A stretch of DNA of 40,515 bases from a virus, in IMG/VR virus record IMGVR_UViG_3300045912_000463, positions 1-40,515 of that record; one strand, 5' to 3'. Position numbers and translations under genes: made by a program. Below the pieces are notes generated by a model. It was not told the DNA's origin, made no database searches, and saw only the letters and a program-made list of their open reading frames with translations. Of this stretch, positions 1,153 to 40,515 are shown piece after piece. How positions within the stretch are numbered: the stretch's first letter is position 1; every line of letters begins with the position of its first letter.

Positions 1153-1914
1153 TCACGCAGCTTGTGAATGATGGGGAAGTTGATGCTCGTCGGCGGGCGG
1201 CTTGTCGTCGTGGATGATGCGAACCACGCGGCCCACGATCTCCTCGACCTGCTCCATCGGGATCGCACTTGGAGTTCCGTTCGTGTGGTCGACGTTGCGC
1301 GACTGCAAGAAGCGGCCAAACCTGTCATCTTTTAGGACCTTACAAACGTAGCCGTTATCAACCAATCGCGCCACCACGGTTGCGGTGTTATAGCCCTTAT
1401 CTTTACGGTCGACCAGCACTGTGTCCCCGTCGTAGATGGGATGCTTGCCAGCTTGCATAGAGTCGCCGCGGATCTTGAAGGCGACAAGGTCTTTGCCTCT
1501 GGCGAAGTTCTCGTCGATCCACACCTGCTCGTCAAGAACCTCTTCCTCTTGGTCTGGGCCCGCACCGCACCATCCGGCGGTGAGGATTCGTAGCCGCCTC
1601 ACGGGTGGTTGTTGCGCAAAGTTAGATGCAAGCGACGCGCCAGGAGCGTCAGGTTCGATTTCGTAAACCAGTTCATGTAAAGGGACATCGAGCGCCTCTG
1701 ACAACTTAACAAGCGTGTCGATGGAAGGCTTGATCCAGTTGCCATATTGCGAAACGCGGCCCTGAACCAAGCCATAGACGGTTGTCGCCCCGATGCCGGA
1801 ATAGTCCGCGAACTCTTCAAGCTTTCGCATCCCAAGTTCGCGCATACGGGCGGCGATGCGTCGGTTAAAGGGCCCGTTGAAATCTTCGAGTGACTTCCTT
1901 CTCTTTGGTGCCAT
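1153..1914 (-). CDS. HTH/S24 phage repressor, second gene of a tandem pair
   Basis: A 253-residue CI/LexA-type repressor. Residues 15-85 form an HTH DNA-binding domain (LEEFADYSGIGATTVYGLVQGRVSQ). Residues 108-235 form an S24 peptidase-like domain with Ser152 (RGDSM), candidate catalytic Lys192 (GYVCKVLK) and an Ala113-Gly114 pair (LTAGWCGAG) at the usual self-cleavage position. RecA-stimulated cleavage and prophage induction would be expected. I chose the ATG at 1914 because AGGAGG lies just upstream; an earlier ATG at 1941 overlaps the upstream gene. It is closely related to the product of 1928-2653 along its full length and is probably co-transcribed with it. Confidence 0.9.
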   Translation of the reverse strand: MAPKRRKSLEDFNGPFNRRIAARMRELGMRKLEEFADYSGIGATTVYGLVQGRVSQYGNWIKPSIDTLVKLSEALDVPLHELVYEIEPDAPGASLASNFAQQPPVRRLRILTAGWCGAGPDQEEEVLDEQVWIDENFARGKDLVAFKIRGDSMQAGKHPIYDGDTVLVDRKDKGYNTATVVARLVDNGYVCKVLKDDRFGRFLQSRNVDHTNGTPSAIPMEQVEEIVGRVVRIIHDDKPPADEHQLPHHSQAA

Positions 1915-1927
1915 GACTCCTCCTGAC

Positions 1928-2653
1928 TCAGCCCACGGCATTTCCGGCGCCGATCTCTGAATGGCGTACCTCTATGACTCTCCCCACGATTTCCTCTACC
2001 TGATCAGCTGGAATATAAGGAGGTGTCCCATTCGTGTAGTTCGGGTTTTGGCTGACAAGGTGCTTGCCGAATCTATCGTCCTTGAGTAGCTTGCAGACAT
2101 AGCCTCCCCCATCGAGCCGTGCAACCACCGTCGCCCCATCGAAGCCCTTGTCCTTTTTGTTGACGAGAACTAAATCCCCATCGAAAATTGGCCGCGGCCC
2201 ACCCTCCATACTGTCTCCGCGGATACGGAACGCCACTAAGTCCTTACCCCGAGCAAACCGCTCCTCAACCCATATATGCTCGCCGTCAATTTCCTCGTAC
2301 TCATCAGGACCTGCCCCTATCCACCCAGCGGTCTTGATCGGGACAGGCTGCATGATGGGGAGATCGCGTGGGATCTCGTCAGCTCCAGGTGCATCTGGAT
2401 CCAGCATGTAAACCAACTGGTGTAGGGGACGGTCAAGTCCCTTGGCCAGCAGTACCAGGGTGTCGAAGCTGGGCTTGATCGGTGTGCCAACCTGCGACAC
2501 GCGCCCTCTTACCAAGGCGTAGAGAGTGGCGCGACCCATACCGATGTGGTCAGCAAACTCCTCCAGCCGCTCGATCCCCAACTCCTTCATTCGTTTCGCG
2601 ATCAAGTTATTAAAAGGGCCTTTTGGTGGAAGGGGTTTTCGCGCGGGCGTCAT
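1928..2653 (-). CDS. HTH/S24 phage repressor, first gene of a tandem pair
   Basis: 241 residues. The HTH (LEEFADHIGMGRATLYALVRGRVSQ) is followed by an S24 domain with Ala109-Gly110 as candidate cleavage pair, Ser148 (RGDSM) and Lys188 (GYVCKLLK). The RBS GGAGG lies 7 nt before the ATG. The gene is divergent from the Cro/Ner-like gene at 2733 and shares the operator region with it, as the c repressor does in Mu. It therefore probably holds the lysogenic state. The recognition helix differs from that of its neighbour (GRATLYALVRG versus GATTVYGLVQG), so the two proteins may read different operators or form mixed dimers. Confidence 0.92.
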   Translation of the reverse strand: MTPARKPLPPKGPFNNLIAKRMKELGIERLEEFADHIGMGRATLYALVRGRVSQVGTPIKPSFDTLVLLAKGLDRPLHQLVYMLDPDAPGADEIPRDLPIMQPVPIKTAGWIGAGPDEYEEIDGEHIWVEERFARGKDLVAFRIRGDSMEGGPRPIFDGDLVLVNKKDKGFDGATVVARLDGGGYVCKLLKDDRFGKHLVSQNPNYTNGTPPYIPADQVEEIVGRVIEVRHSEIGAGNAVG

Positions 2654-2670
2654 GCTGATACCTCCATCGC

Positions 2671-2712
2671 TTGACTATTCACAAATGTAGATTATAATCG
2701 GTCTACATATGT
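2671..2712 (+). promoter_or_regulatory. Early lytic promoter with inverted-repeat operator
   Basis: TTGACT (2671-2676) and TATAAT (2693-2698), 16 bp apart, form a strong sigma70-type promoter towards the Ner-like gene and transposase. ACAAATGTAGA (2681-2691) and TCTACATATGT (2702-2712) form an 11-bp inverted repeat with one mismatch that brackets the -10 box, an obvious operator. The ATTATAAT core is itself symmetric, so a minus-strand -10 for the repressor genes may share these bases. Confidence 0.8.
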
Positions 2713-2732
2713 AAAGAAAGGAGGAGGGCACA

Positions 2733-2963
2733 ATGAATCCCGAACGACTCAAAAACCGCATAGGGGAGCTCGGTCTAACGCAGGCTGAAGTCGCCCGGCG
2801 CGCAAAAATCAGCCCTGGCTACGTCCACTTGCTAGTCAGGGGCGAGCGAGGTAGGAGGATAGGGGCCGAGGTTTTAACGCGGCTCAGCAAAGCGTTGGAC
2901 GTCGAGCCAGATTTTTTTTGCACGACTAGTCCACATGTGAAGAAAGAGGTAGTCGGTGGCTAG
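2733..2963 (+). CDS. Cro/Ner-like HTH regulator
   Basis: A 76-residue HTH_3 protein: LTQAEVARRAKISPGYVHLLVRGERGRRIGAEVLTRLSKALDVEP fills almost the whole chain. A strong RBS (AAAGGAGGAGG) precedes the ATG. It is the first gene after the early promoter and is followed by the transposase and ATPase, the position of ner in Mu. A likely role is to damp the early and repressor promoters during lytic growth. Operator-like sequences lie both upstream and at its own 3' end. Confidence 0.88.
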   Translation: MNPERLKNRIGELGLTQAEVARRAKISPGYVHLLVRGERGRRIGAEVLTRLSKALDVEPDFFCTTSPHVKKEVVGG

Positions 2964-2986: not shown

Positions 2987-5227
2987 ATGCCCTGGTTTAG
3001 CGATAGACGAGGGGTAGAACTCCTAACAGTTGAGGAATGCCAAGAGGTTTTTGGGAAATCTAGGCGATCCATCAACGCCGCTATGCGCCGACACGGCGTC
3101 TATACCGAGCACCATTTGATCAAGCACAAGGAGGGACGAGGGGCAAGCAAGAGAGCATTTATCGACCCCCTTACTCTCCAAGCGATAACTGGTTGGGAGA
3201 TTGTGAACAACTGGCACAAGCATTGCACAGTGCCTCAGGGCAGTGTGCAACTTTTGGATGAAGCAAAGGGGGCACTGTGCAATAGCTCAAAATCTTCGAC
3301 AGGTACGCAAAAACCCACAACCTCACGATTTGAAAAGGGAGGGGGCACTGTGCAACTGGTTGAGGGCACTGTGCAAGAGGGTAATTGCACAGTGCCCCTC
3401 AAAGCAGCCATGGGATGGGAGTCCAATACCAATGACAGGTTGCCCCACGAAACCCCTTCCCCTACCCACATCATCCCCAACCTCGCCCAGGTCCCCTCGG
3501 AAGAGCTGACCAAGGCACAACGCCGCGCCCGAGCGCTCTTACCGCTGGCAGAGCTATCGACCGCCGAGCGCCTCGCACGCTTCCGGGAACTGGCCGCCTC
3601 CGGCGAATTGGGCGTGCGGAGCGTGCGCAGCGTGCGACGCCTGTACGACCAGCTCATCAAAGGACGTGAGGTCAAAGGGCAGCCCAGGGCCGGGCCGCTC
3701 GCGCTGGTGCGCCCACACCGCGCCGACAAGGGCAAGCCACGCATCCCGGAAGAGCTTTTCAAGCTCGTCGTGATGCTCTGGCTGATGCATCCCAACGCCG
3801 CCGCACCCAAGCTCTTGCGGATCGTCGAACTCAACGATCCCGCGCTGCTGTCCTACCGCAAGCGCAAGACGCACCGGCTGTCGGCCTCGACCATCCGGCG
3901 AACCCGCCGGTGGATGGAGCGAGTGCCGGAGTTGCGGTACGCGCTGATGAACGCCGATGAGCGGCACGAGTTCCACCGCATCTGGGCGGGAGAAGTGCTC
4001 ACCGAGCGGGCATGCGAGCTGTGGATGGCGGACATGACGCGCTGCGACGTGTTCGTTTTCGACCCGAACGAACCCGAGCCGAGCATGTACCGGCTGCGCA
4101 TTCACGCCATCATCGATGTCTACTCGGGGGCCGTCCCAGCGTTCGTCTTCAGCCGTCAGGAGGACCAGTCGGCTACCGACCGGATGCTCTTCTTGGCCGT
4201 GCACGAGAAGCCTGGCGTCTGGGCGGAACACTGGCCCGTCTACGGCCGCCCCGAGACGCTCTATTGGGATAACGGCAGGGTCTACCGCAGCAAGAAGAGC
4301 GAGCAGGTTTGCGCCGACTTGGGCATCCGCCTCATCAACAGCCGTCCTTACGTGAGCCACAGCCGCGGGAACATCGAGCGGCTGTTCGCCACCTTCCACC
4401 AGACCCATGAAAAGCTGCTGCCGGGCTACGCGGGCAAGGACGCGACCGACAAGAGCGGCAAAGAGCTAGACCGCCTCTGGAAGAACACCCTCAAGTGGTT
4501 GGAGCGCGGCGGCCCCGACCCCTACCCTGAGAGGTTGCTCACCGAGGACGAATACAAGCGCAAGGCGCTCGTGTGGCTGGTAACCGAGTATCACCGGACG
4601 CTGCACCTGGGCAAGACGCCCGTCGAGCACTACCTGGAGACCGCGCCCGTCAGCGCTCGCGCGGTCGTGTCGTTCGACGAGCTGATGACGCTCTTCAGCA
4701 ATCGCGAGGTGCGCACCGTCGAGGGGAACGGCTGGGTTCGCTGGCGCAACCGCAAGTGGGCGCTCTCGGACGCGAGCCTCGTCAAGTACCAACGGCAGAA
4801 GATCGTCATCCTCGCCAACGAACTCGTGCCCGGCGCCGAGCAGATCAAAGCGGCGCTGGAGTTACCGGACGGGAATCTGGCGATCCTGGGCGACCTGGTG
4901 CCCTACGGCGGCTCCGCGCTCGACGAGGCGAACCGCGCCTACCGGCAGGCGGCGAAGGGCGTCCTGAGCGACCTGGCGGCTCGCGCCGAGGACGTGCTGG
5001 AGACGTGGATCGATCCGGAGTGGCGGCACGACCGGGTGCAAGAGCGGGCCTTCGGGCTCTCGCCCGAACCGCTCGTCATCGAGCCCGCCCCTCGCGCCAC
5101 CCTGGCGGCGCTCAACCCCGAGGAGCGGCGGGCGAAACAGCTCGAAGAGGACCGCAAGGCGCTCGAAGCCGAAGGACTCAAGCTCGACTGGGACGTCGAC
5201 ATTCCCAGCGAGAGGAGGAGGGAATAA
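2987..5227 (+). CDS. DDE transposase, MuA/TnsB type
   Basis: A 746-residue rve-fold transposase that would bind the prophage ends, cut them and join them to target DNA. The N-terminal ~60 residues look like a Mu-type HTH (VEECQEVFGKSRRSINAAMRRHG). Residues 75-190 are a low-complexity linker whose DNA carries six repeats of GGCACTGTGCAA. The catalytic core has Asp349 (WMADMTRCD), Asp428 (YWDNGRVY) and Glu464 (SHSRGNIERLF). The 35 residues between the last two are typical of the superfamily. A C-terminal barrel-like region and a charged tail follow. An AGGAGA ribosome site lies 11 nt before the ATG. The next gene begins at the base after the stop codon. Confidence 0.95.
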   Translation: MPWFSDRRGVELLTVEECQEVFGKSRRSINAAMRRHGVYTEHHLIKHKEGRGASKRAFIDPLTLQAITGWEIVNNWHKHCTVPQGSVQLLDEAKGALCNSSKSSTGTQKPTTSRFEKGGGTVQLVEGTVQEGNCTVPLKAAMGWESNTNDRLPHETPSPTHIIPNLAQVPSEELTKAQRRARALLPLAELSTAERLARFRELAASGELGVRSVRSVRRLYDQLIKGREVKGQPRAGPLALVRPHRADKGKPRIPEELFKLVVMLWLMHPNAAAPKLLRIVELNDPALLSYRKRKTHRLSASTIRRTRRWMERVPELRYALMNADERHEFHRIWAGEVLTERACELWMADMTRCDVFVFDPNEPEPSMYRLRIHAIIDVYSGAVPAFVFSRQEDQSATDRMLFLAVHEKPGVWAEHWPVYGRPETLYWDNGRVYRSKKSEQVCADLGIRLINSRPYVSHSRGNIERLFATFHQTHEKLLPGYAGKDATDKSGKELDRLWKNTLKWLERGGPDPYPERLLTEDEYKRKALVWLVTEYHRTLHLGKTPVEHYLETAPVSARAVVSFDELMTLFSNREVRTVEGNGWVRWRNRKWALSDASLVKYQRQKIVILANELVPGAEQIKAALELPDGNLAILGDLVPYGGSALDEANRAYRQAAKGVLSDLAARAEDVLETWIDPEWRHDRVQERAFGLSPEPLVIEPAPRATLAALNPEERRAKQLEEDRKALEAEGLKLDWDVDIPSERRRE
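3223..3396. repeat. Six-copy GGCACTGTGCAA site cluster inside the transposase gene
   Basis: Copies lie at 3223-3234 (-), 3239-3250 (+, one mismatch), 3271-3282 (+), 3344-3355 (+), 3365-3376 (+) and 3385-3396 (-). The core GCAC(T/A)GTGC is a near-perfect palindrome. The copies fall in more than one reading frame (encoding CTVP, GSVQL, GALCN, GTVQL and GTVQE), so it is the DNA and not the protein that is conserved. The spacing is irregular (about 16 to 73 bp). A cluster of protein-binding sites is the simplest reading, for example a transposition enhancer, operator or partition-like site. Confidence 0.85.
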
Positions 5228-6013
5228 ATGCAAGACGCCACCAGACAGCTCACCCCCCGCGACATCGACGCCCTGCTGGCGGAGAGCATCGAGACGTCGC
5301 TCCTCGAGGAGGCGCCGGAGGACTTCCTCTACACCACCGCCACCCGGACGATCATCTCGCGCCTCGACGCCGCCAGGCGCAACCGCTACCCGTTCGTGCT
5401 GGTATCCGGCCCGGCGGGTAGCGGCAAAAGCATGACGGTGCGCGAGTACGCGAGGGACAAGGAAGTCGGTTACATCCGCTGCTATCCGGACTTCGGCCCC
5501 AGCGAGCTTTTGCAAGAGATCATCGCCCACCTCTCGCTCAACGAGACGAAAAGCTACCGCCTCAAGCTCTCGGTGGTCGCGACCGCGCTGCGGCAGCGCT
5601 ACCGGATGATCGCGCTGGACGAAGCGCAGCTGATGAACCGCAAGGCGCTCGAAGCCGCCAAGTACTTGGCGGACGAGGCGGGCTGCACCTTCGTGCTGAT
5701 CATGACCGACGAGTTCGTCGACCGGCTGCGCAACTGGCGCGATATCGACAGCCGCACCGGCGTGGCCGCCACCATCGGCCCGGTGAGCCTCGACGAGTTC
5801 CGCGTGCTCTACAGCGATTCGGGCTTCGGCGAGGTCACGCTCGACGAGATCCACACCATCACCGGCGGCGTGATGCGCGACGTGGCCCGGCTGATCCGGC
5901 TGATCGACGAATTCTGCGAGATCAACGCCCCGCGCGGGCTCACGCGCGGCCTGCTCGCGCCCAGGCACGTGCGGATCGTCGCGGAGAAGCTCAACCTCCG
6001 AGGGGGGCGCTGA
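5228..6013 (+). CDS. AAA+ ATPase, MuB/TnsC-type target-DNA regulator
   Basis: 261 residues. Walker A is GPAGSGKS at 61-68 and Walker B is RMIALDEAQ with Asp131-Glu132. A sensor-like strand (FVLIMTDEF) follows, then a helical lid (GGVMRDVARLIRLIDEFC). MuB/TnsC proteins form ATP-dependent filaments on DNA, present the target to the transposase and keep the element from inserting into itself. The gene follows the transposase without a gap and overlaps the next gene by TGATG, so the three are translated together. I see no TnsD, TniQ or Cas gene nearby, so target choice is probably unselective as in Mu. Confidence 0.93.
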   Translation: MQDATRQLTPRDIDALLAESIETSLLEEAPEDFLYTTATRTIISRLDAARRNRYPFVLVSGPAGSGKSMTVREYARDKEVGYIRCYPDFGPSELLQEIIAHLSLNETKSYRLKLSVVATALRQRYRMIALDEAQLMNRKALEAAKYLADEAGCTFVLIMTDEFVDRLRNWRDIDSRTGVAATIGPVSLDEFRVLYSDSGFGEVTLDEIHTITGGVMRDVARLIRLIDEFCEINAPRGLTRGLLAPRHVRIVAEKLNLRGGR

Positions 6014-10407: not shown

Positions 10408-10856
10408 CCGTGCTCGACGCGCCGCGCCTCAAGACCGCCACCAACCTCGAAAAGTGGCGGGCCGACTTTGTCCTATACGCCCTCTGGCGCGTTGCTCACG
10501 ACCGCGACCACTGGCGGCACCTGCGCACCAAGCCGCTGCACCTCGTCGGCAACGGCAGCGGCCGGGGCGGCAGCCTGGGCGGCGCCGCATACTTGCGCGT
10601 CCGCGTCAAGGCGCTCCCGGCCCTGGGCATCGAAGCGCACGAGCTGCGGCTGTGGCGCGACGACTACGTGCGGGCGCTCAAGAACCTATCCAGCGACCAG
10701 CGGCACGAGCTGAAGTACCACCTCGCCAGGCCGCGCTACAGCAGCGTATTTCGGTTCCATCGCCGCGCGGGCCTCGTCCAGGCCAGCGACACGGTAGAGG
10801 CGGCGCTCGCCCAGGCCGCACTGAAAATCGCGGGGTGGGCGGAGGTGGTAGCATGA
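10404..10856 (+). CDS. Hypothetical protein
   Basis: 150 residues, GTG start after GGAGG. It is basic and probably helical, with a Gly-rich turn (GNGSGRGGSLGGAAYLRVRVKAL) in the middle. Not recognised. It is coupled to the following RHH gene by ATGATG across the stop. Confidence 0.6.
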   Translation: MTVLDAPRLKTATNLEKWRADFVLYALWRVAHDRDHWRHLRTKPLHLVGNGSGRGGSLGGAAYLRVRVKALPALGIEAHELRLWRDDYVRALKNLSSDQRHELKYHLARPRYSSVFRFHRRAGLVQASDTVEAALAQAALKIAGWAEVVA

Positions 10857-11071
10857 TGGCAGTGGCCGAGAACCGCTCCCGGCGCGGCAAATGGGGCGGA
10901 GCACGACCTGGAGCAGGGCGAAAGGCGGAGCTGGCCGATCCTGCACACGTAGGAACCGCCATAGAACGTGAAGAGCTGGAACAGCTCGACGCCTTAGCCA
11001 GAGAGCGAAACCTGACCAGGGCACAGCTTCTCCGTGAGATCATATCGGGATACTTGAAAAGAATCACGTAA
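10853..11071 (+). CDS. Ribbon-helix-helix DNA-binding protein
   Basis: 72 residues. The N-terminal RGKWGGARPGAGRK is an AT-hook-like arm common in phage DNA-binding proteins. Residues ~38-70 (HVGTAIEREELEQLDALARERNLTRAQLLREIISGYLKRI) fit the Arc/CopG ribbon-helix-helix fold. It is the last gene before a 62-nt inverted repeat, which could be its operator. Confidence 0.7.
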   Translation: MMAVAENRSRRGKWGGARPGAGRKAELADPAHVGTAIEREELEQLDALARERNLTRAQLLREIISGYLKRIT

Positions 11072-18358: not shown

Positions 18359-19549
18359 GTGCCTCCCGCCTTCGACGTCCTACCCGCACCCCTGCCCTTC
18401 GCGCAAGCGATCGAGGCGTTTGCAGGCCGCCTCCCTTTACGCCCGGAAGAGTATGCGGAGCTCGTCAGCGAAGCGAGAGCGCGGGCCTTCACCGTGGGCG
18501 GGGTGGCCAGCGACGACCTGCTCGCGGACGTGTACGCGGGCATCGAGCGAGCCCTCGCCGAGGGGACGACCTTCGAGGCGTTCACGCGAGACCTGGGCGA
18601 GCGCCTCGAGAAAGCGTGGGGTGGTGACGACCCCTGGCGCCTCTCGACCGTGTTTCAAACCAACGTGCAAAGCGCCTACCAGGCCGGGCACTACAAGCAG
18701 ATGACCGACCCGGACGTGCTGGCCGCCAGGCCGATCTGGCGCTACGATGCCGTCAACGATGGGCGCACCCGACCCTCGCACCGGGCGCTGGACGGCATGA
18801 CCGCCCCGGCGGACGATCCCATCTGGGACACCCACTTTCCACCGAATGGGTTCAACTGCCGCTGCGGCGTCATCACGCTGAGCCCCGAGCAGGTCGATGA
18901 GCGGGGCATCCGCATACTCTCGCGCGAGGAGACCGAGAGGCTGGCTCGTAACTTCCGCCCCGACAAGGGGTTCGAGATCAACCCCGGTAAGGTCTTCTGG
19001 GGCGACCAGCTCGCGCAGCGGGCGGTCGAGGCGGCCTCCAGCGGCACGTGGGAGCCCGCCGTGCGCGGCACGCCATCACGTCCCGCAGCGTACGGCCGAC
19101 CCGAGCGAATTCCAACCTCGCCTCGCCCCACCGACCTACTGCCCACCATCCGGGAAGCAGGAGCAGCGCGGTTTAGACAGGCGCTGCAGGCGGCGTGGGG
19201 AGGCGAGTCGGCCACCGTCCAAGATCCCACCGGCCGGGGGGTGGTTCTCTCCAACGTACTGCTGAATCACGTACGGCCCGACGGACGCGAGCGCTTCTTG
19301 AGCCTGCTACCCGACGTGGTGCGGAACCCGTTCGAGATCTGGCTGGCCCCCATGAAGAACGCCGCGACCGGCCAAGTGGTGATGAGGCGCCGCTACATCA
19401 AGCTGTATGAGGGCGAGCGGCGTGACAACCCTGTGCTGCTCGTCGCTGACATGCAGCGGGGCGCATGGGTGGGCTGGACGATGATCGAGACGCGCGACAT
19501 GCGCTACGTGCTGCAACAGCGGCAGGGAATCTTGCAGTGGCCGAATTGA
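18359..19549 (+). CDS. MuF head protein fused to a PBECR2-type nuclease/toxin domain
   Basis: 396 residues from a GTG with GGAGG 6 nt upstream. Residues ~95-172 are the MuF/SPP1-gp7 domain (TNVQSAYQAGHYKQM...RTRPSHRALDGMTAPADDP...HFPPNGFNCRC). After a Pro-rich linker, residues ~300-394 (VRPDGRERFLSLLPDVVRNPFEIWLAPMKNAATGQVVMRRRYIKLYEG...LLVADMQRGAWVGWTMIETRDMRYVLQQRQGILQW) match the PBECR2-like nuclease fold. MuF sits at the portal and can be ejected with DNA, so the toxin may enter the host. The final TGA (19547-19549) lies in the IS end. The domain seems complete, so little protein was lost. Confidence 0.85.
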   Translation: MPPAFDVLPAPLPFAQAIEAFAGRLPLRPEEYAELVSEARARAFTVGGVASDDLLADVYAGIERALAEGTTFEAFTRDLGERLEKAWGGDDPWRLSTVFQTNVQSAYQAGHYKQMTDPDVLAARPIWRYDAVNDGRTRPSHRALDGMTAPADDPIWDTHFPPNGFNCRCGVITLSPEQVDERGIRILSREETERLARNFRPDKGFEINPGKVFWGDQLAQRAVEAASSGTWEPAVRGTPSRPAAYGRPERIPTSPRPTDLLPTIREAGAARFRQALQAAWGGESATVQDPTGRGVVLSNVLLNHVRPDGRERFLSLLPDVVRNPFEIWLAPMKNAATGQVVMRRRYIKLYEGERRDNPVLLVADMQRGAWVGWTMIETRDMRYVLQQRQGILQWPN

Positions 19550-19700
19550 CACTCCCACGGCTAAAGCACGTGGGATTCTTGCTTCACAGCGCTGTGCCGA
19601 CTGATTAGGGTCGGTCTTACCTGCGCTCCACAAGCGTTTAGCGTCTCGGCGTGCCCCGCCGCGACAAGCTGTTTAAGTCCTTCTACTTTGATGTTGTGCG
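19546..19700 (-). ncRNA. Predicted TnpB omega/right-end RNA
   Basis: IS200/IS605 elements transcribe a guide RNA from the tnpB 3' end through the right end. Here it would include the CCCACG/CGTGGG hairpin at 19554-19574 and then read into flanking phage DNA. The guide would start TTCGGCCACTGCAAGA (minus strand below 19546), matching the MuF gene end. The 5' limit is a guess. Confidence 0.4.
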
Positions 19701-20760
19701 CCGCATTCAGGTCGCGGTCTATCACCGCACCACAGGCACACGTCCAAACCCTATCAGCGAGTGTCAGGGCGTCGTTGATAGCGCCGCACTCCATGTGCAG
19801 CTTGGAACTTGGGAAAAACCTGTCTATGACTGCCAGGTGCTTTCGATGCCACACCGTTTTGTACTCGAGTTGCCTACGGAACTCTCCGAGGGCCGCATCA
19901 GACACGCTCTTGGCTAGCTTGGTTCTCGCCATGCCTTTGAGCGATAGGTCTTCGATACAGATACCCTCATAGCCCCTCACTAGGGAGGTGGTCATCTTAT
20001 GGAGAAAGTCTTGACGTTTGTTCCTGACTTTCTGATGGATACGAGCTAGCTGCTGTCTGGCTCTATCACGGTTCTTGCTTCCCTTCTGCTTGCGAGAGAG
20101 CGCCCTTTGTGCGCGTTTCAGCTTCTTCTCGGCGGCGCGGTAGTGCTTGGGCGGCGCTTCCCGTTCACCACTGGAAAGGACAGCGAAGTCTTTGAGCCCG
20201 AGGTCTATGCCTACGACGTTCTCAGGCTTGGCGGGCGGTAGTGGCACGTCCGGCATTTCAAACTCGGCCGTCAGCGTCACATACCACTTGCCGGTGGCGT
20301 CGCGCTTGAAGGTGGCCGACTTGGTTTTGCAGTCAATGTCTTGAGACTGGCGGATGCGTACCCAGCCGATTTTAGGAACGTAGACCTTGCCATCTTCAAC
20401 CTTGACCCGTTGCGGAATGCGGAAGCTCGGCATCTCTCGCTTGCGCGACTTGAACCGAGGAAAGCGCGAGCGTTTCTCAAAGAAGTTCTTGAAGCTGCGG
20501 TCAACGTCCTTGAGCGCCTGTTGAAGGAGCTGCGAGTCAACGCCCTTAAGCCACCCGGTTTCAGGTTGCTTTTTCAGGTCGGTTAGCTCGCTTGAAAGCT
20601 GCTTGGCACTGATGCCCTCCTTGTTCGCCTCATAGAAGTCACGACGCCTAGCCAGCGCCCAATTGAACACGAAGCGTTTCGCCCCAGCCATCTGGCACAG
20701 CAGTTCTTCCTGCGCCTTTGTGGGGCGCATCTGGAAGCGGTAGACCTTGCGAAGCAGCAT
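19561..20760 (-). CDS. tnpB: TnpB, RNA-guided nuclease of IS200/IS605
   Basis: 399 residues. The N-terminal OrfB helix region ([25 protein letters not shown]) is followed by a RuvC-type core: Asp186 (GIDLGLKDF), Glu270 ([12 protein letters not shown]) and Asp350 (IDRDLNAA). The zinc finger is odd: the usual first CxxC is HMEC (His322, Cys325) and the second pair is CAC (341, 343). The catalytic triad is intact. TnpB homologues cut the empty donor site and help retain the element. The start overlaps tnpA (TGATG); the last codons run into the right-end hairpin. Confidence 0.92.
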
Positions 20761-21155
20761 CAGCGTTTCCTCTGCTCTGCAATATACCGCTCAATCGTCT
20801 GGGAGCTGACGTTACCAGCGGTCGAAACGAAATACGAGCGCGTCCACAGACTACGCAACCGCGCCAGATGTGGAAACTCCTGCCGCAACTTGAAGGAGGT
20901 GTAGCCCTTGAGATGACGAACGATGCAATCCACCGAGGTGCTGGGGTCAGCGCCGATGAAGAGATGGAGGTGGTCGGGCATCACCTCTAAGGCGATGACC
21001 TCCCACCCCATCCGTTCGCACTTGTCGTTAAGCAGTTCGCTGAGCCTGTCACTGACGCGCCCTACCAGCAGCTTCTTGCGGTACTTCGGTATCCACACGA
21101 GATGGTAGTTCAAGAGGAATACCGAGGTGGTCTTGTGCTGGTAGGCGCGGGGCAT
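20760..21155 (-). CDS. tnpA: TnpA, Y1 HUH transposase of IS200/IS605
   Basis: 131 residues. The HUH motif is His62-Leu-His64 ([10 protein letters not shown]) and the nucleophile is Tyr124 ([12 protein letters not shown]); the usual [13 protein letters not shown] opening is present. It would excise and insert single-stranded element DNA by recognising the end hairpins. The start overlaps the stop of the upstream 68-residue ORF (TGATG), so translation is coupled to a gene that IS605 elements do not usually carry. Confidence 0.93.
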
Positions 21156-40281: not shown

Positions 40282-40368
40282 GTCGCGCGTCAAATTATTT
40301 GTCACTAAAAGGGCGATTTTGTGACATTTAATTTGACGCGAGAGTGACATTTAATTTGACGCGCGACA
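40282..40368 (-). repeat. Prophage right end with three transposase-site copies (R1-R3)
   Basis: R1 (40344-40361) and R2 (40321-40338) are GTGACATTTAATTTGACG, reading inward on the minus strand, 23 bp apart. R3 (40288-40305) is CGTCAAATTATTTGTCAC in the opposite sense. GTCGCGCGTCAAATTA at 40282-40297 and its exact complement at 40352-40367 form a 16-bp inverted repeat around R2. The terminus at 40368 is set by the 11-nt spacing shared with L1. Confidence 0.85.
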
Positions 40369-40515
40369 GACTCCCTGGGGACCGACTCCTCTTTCAGCAT
40401 AGCCAAGAACTCCAGGGGAGCGAGGCCCCCAGGTCCCGGTGGGGCCGCCTTCGGTTGTAGTGGTCCAGGTAGGCCAGGATGCGGCCCACGGTGCGCTCGC
40501 TGAGCAGAAGGCCTT
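40369..40515 (-). pseudogene. C-terminal fragment of an integrase-core transposase (host IS)
   Basis: On the minus strand the sequence encodes LLLSERTVGRILAYLDHYNRRRPHRDLG and then, after a one-base frame change in a five-C run (plus strand), GLAPLEFLAMLKEESVPRES. This is the usual end of IS481/IS3-type transposases (YNxxRPHxxLGGLxPLEFL). The frame enters the prophage end without a stop, so its last codons are cut off. It has nothing to do with the permease fragment on the left. Confidence 0.7.

Follow-up and report, generated by a model that had tools for sequence, protein, structure and literature searches.

In phage Mu, the transposition enhancer (IAS) occupies the interval from c to ner and coincides in part with the repressor operators; enhancer and operators are one element. 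What is known of how repressor, enhancer and transposase head remain matched when phages recombine comes chiefly from the Mu family. The Mu transposase mediates an ordered interaction of L, R and the enhancer in cis (PMC3820752). An array of binding sites can also lie inside a coding sequence. The origin of lambda lies midway through gene O, and the O protein is 13 residues longer where two additional iterons are present (PMC7466680).

The window, meaning the whole 40,515-nucleotide stretch that was analysed (IMG/VR record IMGVR_UViG_3300045912_000463), is a Mu-like transposable phage, with a DDE transposase, an AAA ATPase, a Mu-type head protein and repeated end motifs that resemble transposase sites. 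The phage termini are probably at 127 (TGT) and 40368 (ACA), and the end motifs CGTCAAATTAAATGTCAC / GTGACATTTAATTTGACGC occupy 127-335 and 40283-40368. Type V-K CAST elements may have similar ends, and among solved structures the transposase is best matched by the TnsB proteins 8rdu and 7svw, from CRISPR-associated transposons, rather than by MuA. No target-site duplication was found at the phage ends, which are bordered by CGAGC on the left (122-126) and GACTC on the right (40369-40373), and the flanks outside the ends are short, at about 126 and 147 bp. Packaged DNA carrying different host flanks would fit these observations, as would a contig that was trimmed or is chimeric. Read by eye, the flank peptides are the end of an ABC transporter on the left and a fragment of an IS481-like transposase on the right. 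An IS200/IS605-like element at 19561-21155 comes after the ORF ending at 19549; its TnpB and TnpA-like ORFs run on the minus strand, and local GC falls there to about 0.56.

The features of the left end and early region that enter the argument are as follows.

1153-1941, minus strand: S24/LexA-type repressor, 60% identical to the repressor at 1928-2653
1928-2653, minus strand: S24/LexA-type repressor, 60% identical to the repressor at 1153-1941
2671-2698, plus strand: probable early promoter (TTGACT-16-TATAAT, 11/12 consensus)
2679-2714: two operator-like words TCTACATNTGTGA, one overlapping the early promoter (2679-2691, minus strand) and one following it (2702-2714, plus strand)
2733-2963, plus strand: Ner-like HTH regulator
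2987-5227, plus strand: transposase gene, with the DDE/rve core at residues 344-455 (Pfam rve) and PHROG 310 from residue 165
2987-3232, plus strand: N-terminal domain of the transposase (82 residues), predicted to be winged-helix or MerR/excisionase-like (pLDDT 69), the putative reader of the array
3442-3475: break in base composition, a proposed mosaic junction where the left-end control cassette would meet the remaining phage
5228-6013, plus strand: TniB/MuB-type AAA ATPase
10853-11068: small ribbon-helix-helix (RHH) protein, CopG-like, over the cut-off for Pfam RHH_1, with a GGARPGAGRK head, in the early region

The tandem repressors at 1153-2653 are a duplicated repressor in one immunity region.

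Inside the transposase gene the window holds six copies of the word GGCACTGTGCAA, five exact and one with a single mismatch, in 174 bp. A previous sequence-only reading had described a palindromic site with this copy number, the four middle copies alike and the two outermost inverted. The coordinates confirm the count and the orientations (- + + + + -), but palindromy holds only for the 9-bp core GCAC-T-GTGC. The full 12-mer, with GG on the left and AA on the right, is non-palindromic, and its copies therefore have an orientation.

3223-3234, minus strand: site 1, GGCACTGTGCAA, exact, codes HCTVP
3239-3250, plus strand: site 2, GGCAGTGTGCAA, one mismatch, codes GSVQ
3271-3282, plus strand: site 3, GGCACTGTGCAA, exact, in a different codon register, codes GALCN
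3283-3343: spacer of 61 bp between the two three-site clusters, 46% GC
3344-3355, plus strand: site 4, GGCACTGTGCAA, exact, codes GTVQ
3365-3376, plus strand: site 5, GGCACTGTGCAA, exact, codes GTVQ, core centre 21 bp from that of site 4
3385-3396, minus strand: site 6, GGCACTGTGCAA, exact and inverted, codes NCTVP, core centre 21 bp from that of site 5

The two clusters of three are mirror images of one another (- + + and + + -). Core centres lie at 3229, 3244, 3276, 3349, 3370 and 3391, spaced by 15, 32, 73, 21 and 21 bp, and the half-sites within a core are 5 bp apart. The codons are GGC-ACT-GTG-CAA at 3344 and 3365, with the same register at 3239 (as GSVQ). The register is shifted at 3271, where the codons are GGG-GCA-CTG-TGC-AAT, and the inverted pair reads CTVP. 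The word was not found elsewhere in the 40.5 kb window, and permitting up to 2 mismatches adds only 6637; no other 12-mer in the window surpasses its copy number.

The gene was resampled synonymously using the codon usage of the local low-GC region while the protein was held constant. In 5000 trials no 12-mer exceeded 3 copies, a number reached in 6 trials, compared with the 5 observed. Given its peptide and the local codon usage, each site has a probability of P = 0.005-0.02. The sequences beyond the 12-mer are nearly random and unlike one another, apart from one or two G upstream, so the array is not a duplication of some longer unit. The resampling result, together with a similarity that ends at the edges of the 12-mer, makes the array a DNA-level feature, neither a protein repeat nor a duplicated block. 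The sequence-only reading had reached the same view from the use of more than one reading frame, and the two codon registers and both strands used by the sites agree with it. A local tandem duplication or minisatellite was ruled out by the unlike flanks, the use of both strands and the irregular spacing. Uptake sequences were dropped as an explanation because the word is absent from the remainder of the window, and a terminator was dropped because none was found at the array.

The protein appears to accommodate these sites in a spacer. The window transposase was aligned with 17 other Mu-like transposases, among them MuA and D108 A. In this alignment the array encodes about 60-70 extra residues, placed after the N-terminal domain and before the part that aligns with I-beta, and these residues are absent from all 17 of the other proteins. 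The linker is predicted to be disordered, which supports the earlier placement of the sites in a disordered segment that separates a DNA-binding-like domain at the N-terminus from the remainder of the transposase.

The N-terminal 82 residues were modelled with AF2 as a beta-alpha-alpha-beta-alpha fold resembling a winged HTH, with moderate confidence. The best fold matches were weak and were to DNA-binding domains of the MerR/excisionase type. No sequence family was matched by this domain, nor did it match an HMM built from 20 N-termini of the I-alpha type; it also gave no match to Pfam PF02316 in a search that found no control either. On the strength of the model the domain is probably DNA-binding, and by sequence it is not recognisably MuA I-alpha.

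The array, about 3.1 kb inside the left end (127), is part of a control region whose GC content is about 52-55%. Over all 40 kb of the window, GC changes most strongly at 3442 (LLR 47.8), or at 3475 in two of the shorter segments that were analysed, 46-79 bp past the last array site. Across it GC rises from about 0.55 to 0.64-0.67, and within the transposase gene GC3 rises from 0.54 to 0.88 at codon 159 (LLR 39.8, against a permutation maximum of 10.4). Because the break comes just past the array, the two repressors, the operators, Ner, the transposase head and the array form one compositional block. The block looks like a single left-end cassette that is exchangeable and whose join falls within the transposase gene, with a boundary drawn from composition only. 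Mu and D108 are 98.5% identical from Mu position 1519 on (A codon 64), and no similarity was detectable between them from 360 to 1518, an interval that runs from c through ner and A codons 1-64. This pair is a direct precedent for a control cassette that ends inside A, past the enhancer-binding head.

Viral contigs were scanned for three occurrences of GCACNGTGC in a row, which generated 56 loci, versus 11 for the reversed word used as a control. Many of the 56 loci are palindromes beside genes that are Arc-like by eye, or are pentapeptide-repeat genes. Some lie in replication-initiator genes, in the linker that follows the DNA-binding domain. Nine initiator-like genes from the GCACNGTGC set were tested (L013, L014, L021, L031, L045, L049, L052, L164 and L166) and 9/9 matched PHROG replication initiation families. 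L128, which comes from the reversed-word control and carries another repeat word, also matched, for a total of 10/10. L164 and L166, and L165 by reading, carry GCACTGTGCAAGCACTGTGCAA in the initiator-gene linker, with an 11-mer identical to that of the window; the 11-mer GCACTGTGCAA is common to L164 and L166. The arrays of L014, L021, L031, L045, L049, L052, L164, L165 and L166 are probable embedded origins, a layout that recurs in unrelated initiators. We do not claim GCACNGTGC as a universal initiator mark, given the Arc-like and pentapeptide loci and the initiator-like genes of the control (L128 and L129). The share of initiators was similar in the GCACNGTGC set and in the control. The control words were CACGTGACACGT in L128:3661-3729 and CGTGTCACGC in L129:3003-3044, both in probable initiators.

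Relatives of the phage were sought in several ways. Pattern scans confirmed no relatives of the transposase, the ATPase or one repressor in viral contigs, and none of the transposase in genome contigs. The transposase gave 11 records by tblastn against phages, the best at about 27% identity over 41% of the protein. Nothing sensible was returned for its N-terminal part, and the same search found no relative of the repressor. The end motif gave seven single matches in viral contigs, none with a transposase alongside. The array word gave two unrelated matches in genome contigs, one intergenic in Pantoea and one in a Planctomycete contig. In an intergenic stretch of Pantoea rwandensis (L062:5158-5280) there are four copies of the word GCACTGTGCAAT spaced by exactly 37 bp. 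No comparable array was present in 36 other Mu-like transposase genes or in the left ends of 12 other transposable phages, which argues that transposable phages do not generally need one. Mu and D108 have no repeat array of this kind, and the SuMu control region holds an A/T-rich 11-mer three times.

We consider it well supported that the array is a set of protein-binding sites kept at the DNA level within the control cassette, although the binding itself we infer. The putative sites are clustered in the transposase coding sequence within a spacer that the protein tolerates, as part of what looks like a left-end control cassette that also holds the two repressors, their operators, Ner and the transposase head. 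This cassette would be joined to the remaining phage inside the transposase gene, just past the last site. The winged-helix-like head would read the array, so that head and sites travel in the same cassette. As a cis-acting enhancer of transposition, the array would aid assembly of the two phage ends by the transposase. In function it would resemble the Mu IAS, but with a place within the gene and apart from the repressor operators. The head is favoured as the binder by the winged-HTH model, the cassette break, the Mu/D108 precedent, the distinct operators and the layout of initiators and lambda O; counting against the reading are the missing I-alpha match of the N-terminal domain, the absence of such arrays from the other transposable phages examined and a Mu enhancer that lies outside A. 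We therefore put forward the head as reader and end synapsis as the role tentatively, by analogy and at somewhat less than an even chance. The fuller proposal is more doubtful: an exchangeable cassette in which the transposase gene, in the manner of lambda O, holds the enhancer for its own head, uncoupled from the repressor operators, is possible. The enhancer-like role suggested by the sequence-only reading is plausible; the cassette boundary and the Mu/D108 parallel strengthen it, while a head not recognisable as MuA I-alpha weakens it.

The array could instead be an operator for another regulator, the RHH protein at 10853-11068, an S24 repressor or Ner, blocking elongation or folding the control region and thereby limiting transposase. 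This is unlikely, though less so than the other alternatives. The phage does encode an RHH_1 protein over the Pfam cut-off and two S24 repressors that are 60% identical, and GCACNGTGC is the core of intergenic palindrome arrays that lie beside Arc-like genes (by eye) at several viral loci. For an HTH dimer, a palindrome of 9 bp whose half-sites are 5 bp apart is short, and it would also suit a ribbon-helix-helix protein. However, the array word is near no promoter or regulator gene in the window, and a roadblock would hardly call for six sites, a set pattern of orientations and an insertion in the protein. The operator-like word TCTACATNTGTGA, which occurs at the early promoter and in weaker versions at 2931 and 2964, ahead of the transposase, is unlike the array word, so the repressors already have other candidate sites. 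An operator-like role, which the sequence-only reading had listed, thus stays plausible, but the probable repressor operators are different words. Its partition-like site and target-immunity mark fared worse. A partition, domain-organising or immunity mark, bound by a phage or host protein, is very improbable. The sites are clustered, in both orientations, at a single genome location, RHH proteins can serve as centromere binders, and ParB-like genes lie directly upstream of the transposase in RcapMu and vB_RhkS_P1; but 0/16 window proteins scanned matched a ParA or ParB family over the Pfam cut-off, no partition system was recognised, and the array word is unlike the end-binding sites, which argues against an immunity mark.

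Replication-origin-like iterons, read by the N-terminal domain for a round of non-transpositional replication as with lambda O, are improbable. The anatomy matches that of initiator genes, including those whose linkers carry GCACTGTGCAAGCACTGTGCAA. But the gene encodes a DDE transposase with a TniB/MuB partner, and such phages replicate by transposition; nor was a marked AT-rich unwinding element recognised beside the array, where the spacer is 46% GC. About as improbable is a neutral local expansion, without function, in a free linker. The predicted disorder of the linker would permit it, and no relatives were found that could show selection. Simple duplication, however, would copy the flanks and keep to one strand, whereas the copies are exact over 12 bp with unlike flanks, in two registers and on both strands. 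An RNA-level element, in which inverted copies form mRNA hairpins that tune translation or decay of the transposase message, has only a slim chance. RNA of 3210-3410 does fold better than 200/200 shuffles (z -4.3), and the fold includes a hairpin of 13 bp at about 3364-3397. A good fold is, though, an automatic consequence of inverted copies, and with four same-sense copies against two inverted ones not all can pair; the region matched no Rfam family, and it contains no terminator.

If the reading of the array as an enhancer for the transposase head is true, sites within the gene of their reader, with a recombination boundary behind them, would be a different way to keep head and sites matched, and the trick of lambda O would extend to transposases. 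The sequence-only reading had regarded such an element inside the gene as new. The layout itself is known from lambda O (PMC7466680), and its presence in a transposase looks new. Compared with the IAS of Mu and D108, the array is likewise a putative cis-acting site cluster in a left-end control region, and the proposed cassette boundary likewise falls inside the transposase gene, past the N-terminal DNA-reading domain. Unlike in Mu, the array is inside the transposase gene, the operator-like words have a different sequence, and the N-terminal domain is not of a recognisable I-alpha type. As with the origin in lambda gene O, a set of near-identical putative sites lies within the gene for a DNA-binding-like protein and lengthens that protein, but the gene here is for a DDE transposase, not a replication initiator, and no AT-rich unwinding element was recognised. 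The initiators with GCACNGTGC arrays have a palindromic core and a place in the gene identical to those of the window, whereas their proteins are unrelated to the transposase and their arrays are presumably origins. Operators of the Arc/Mnt type also consist of clustered GCACNGTGC palindromes; those lie upstream of the Arc-like genes (by eye), while the copies in the window are inside the transposase gene.
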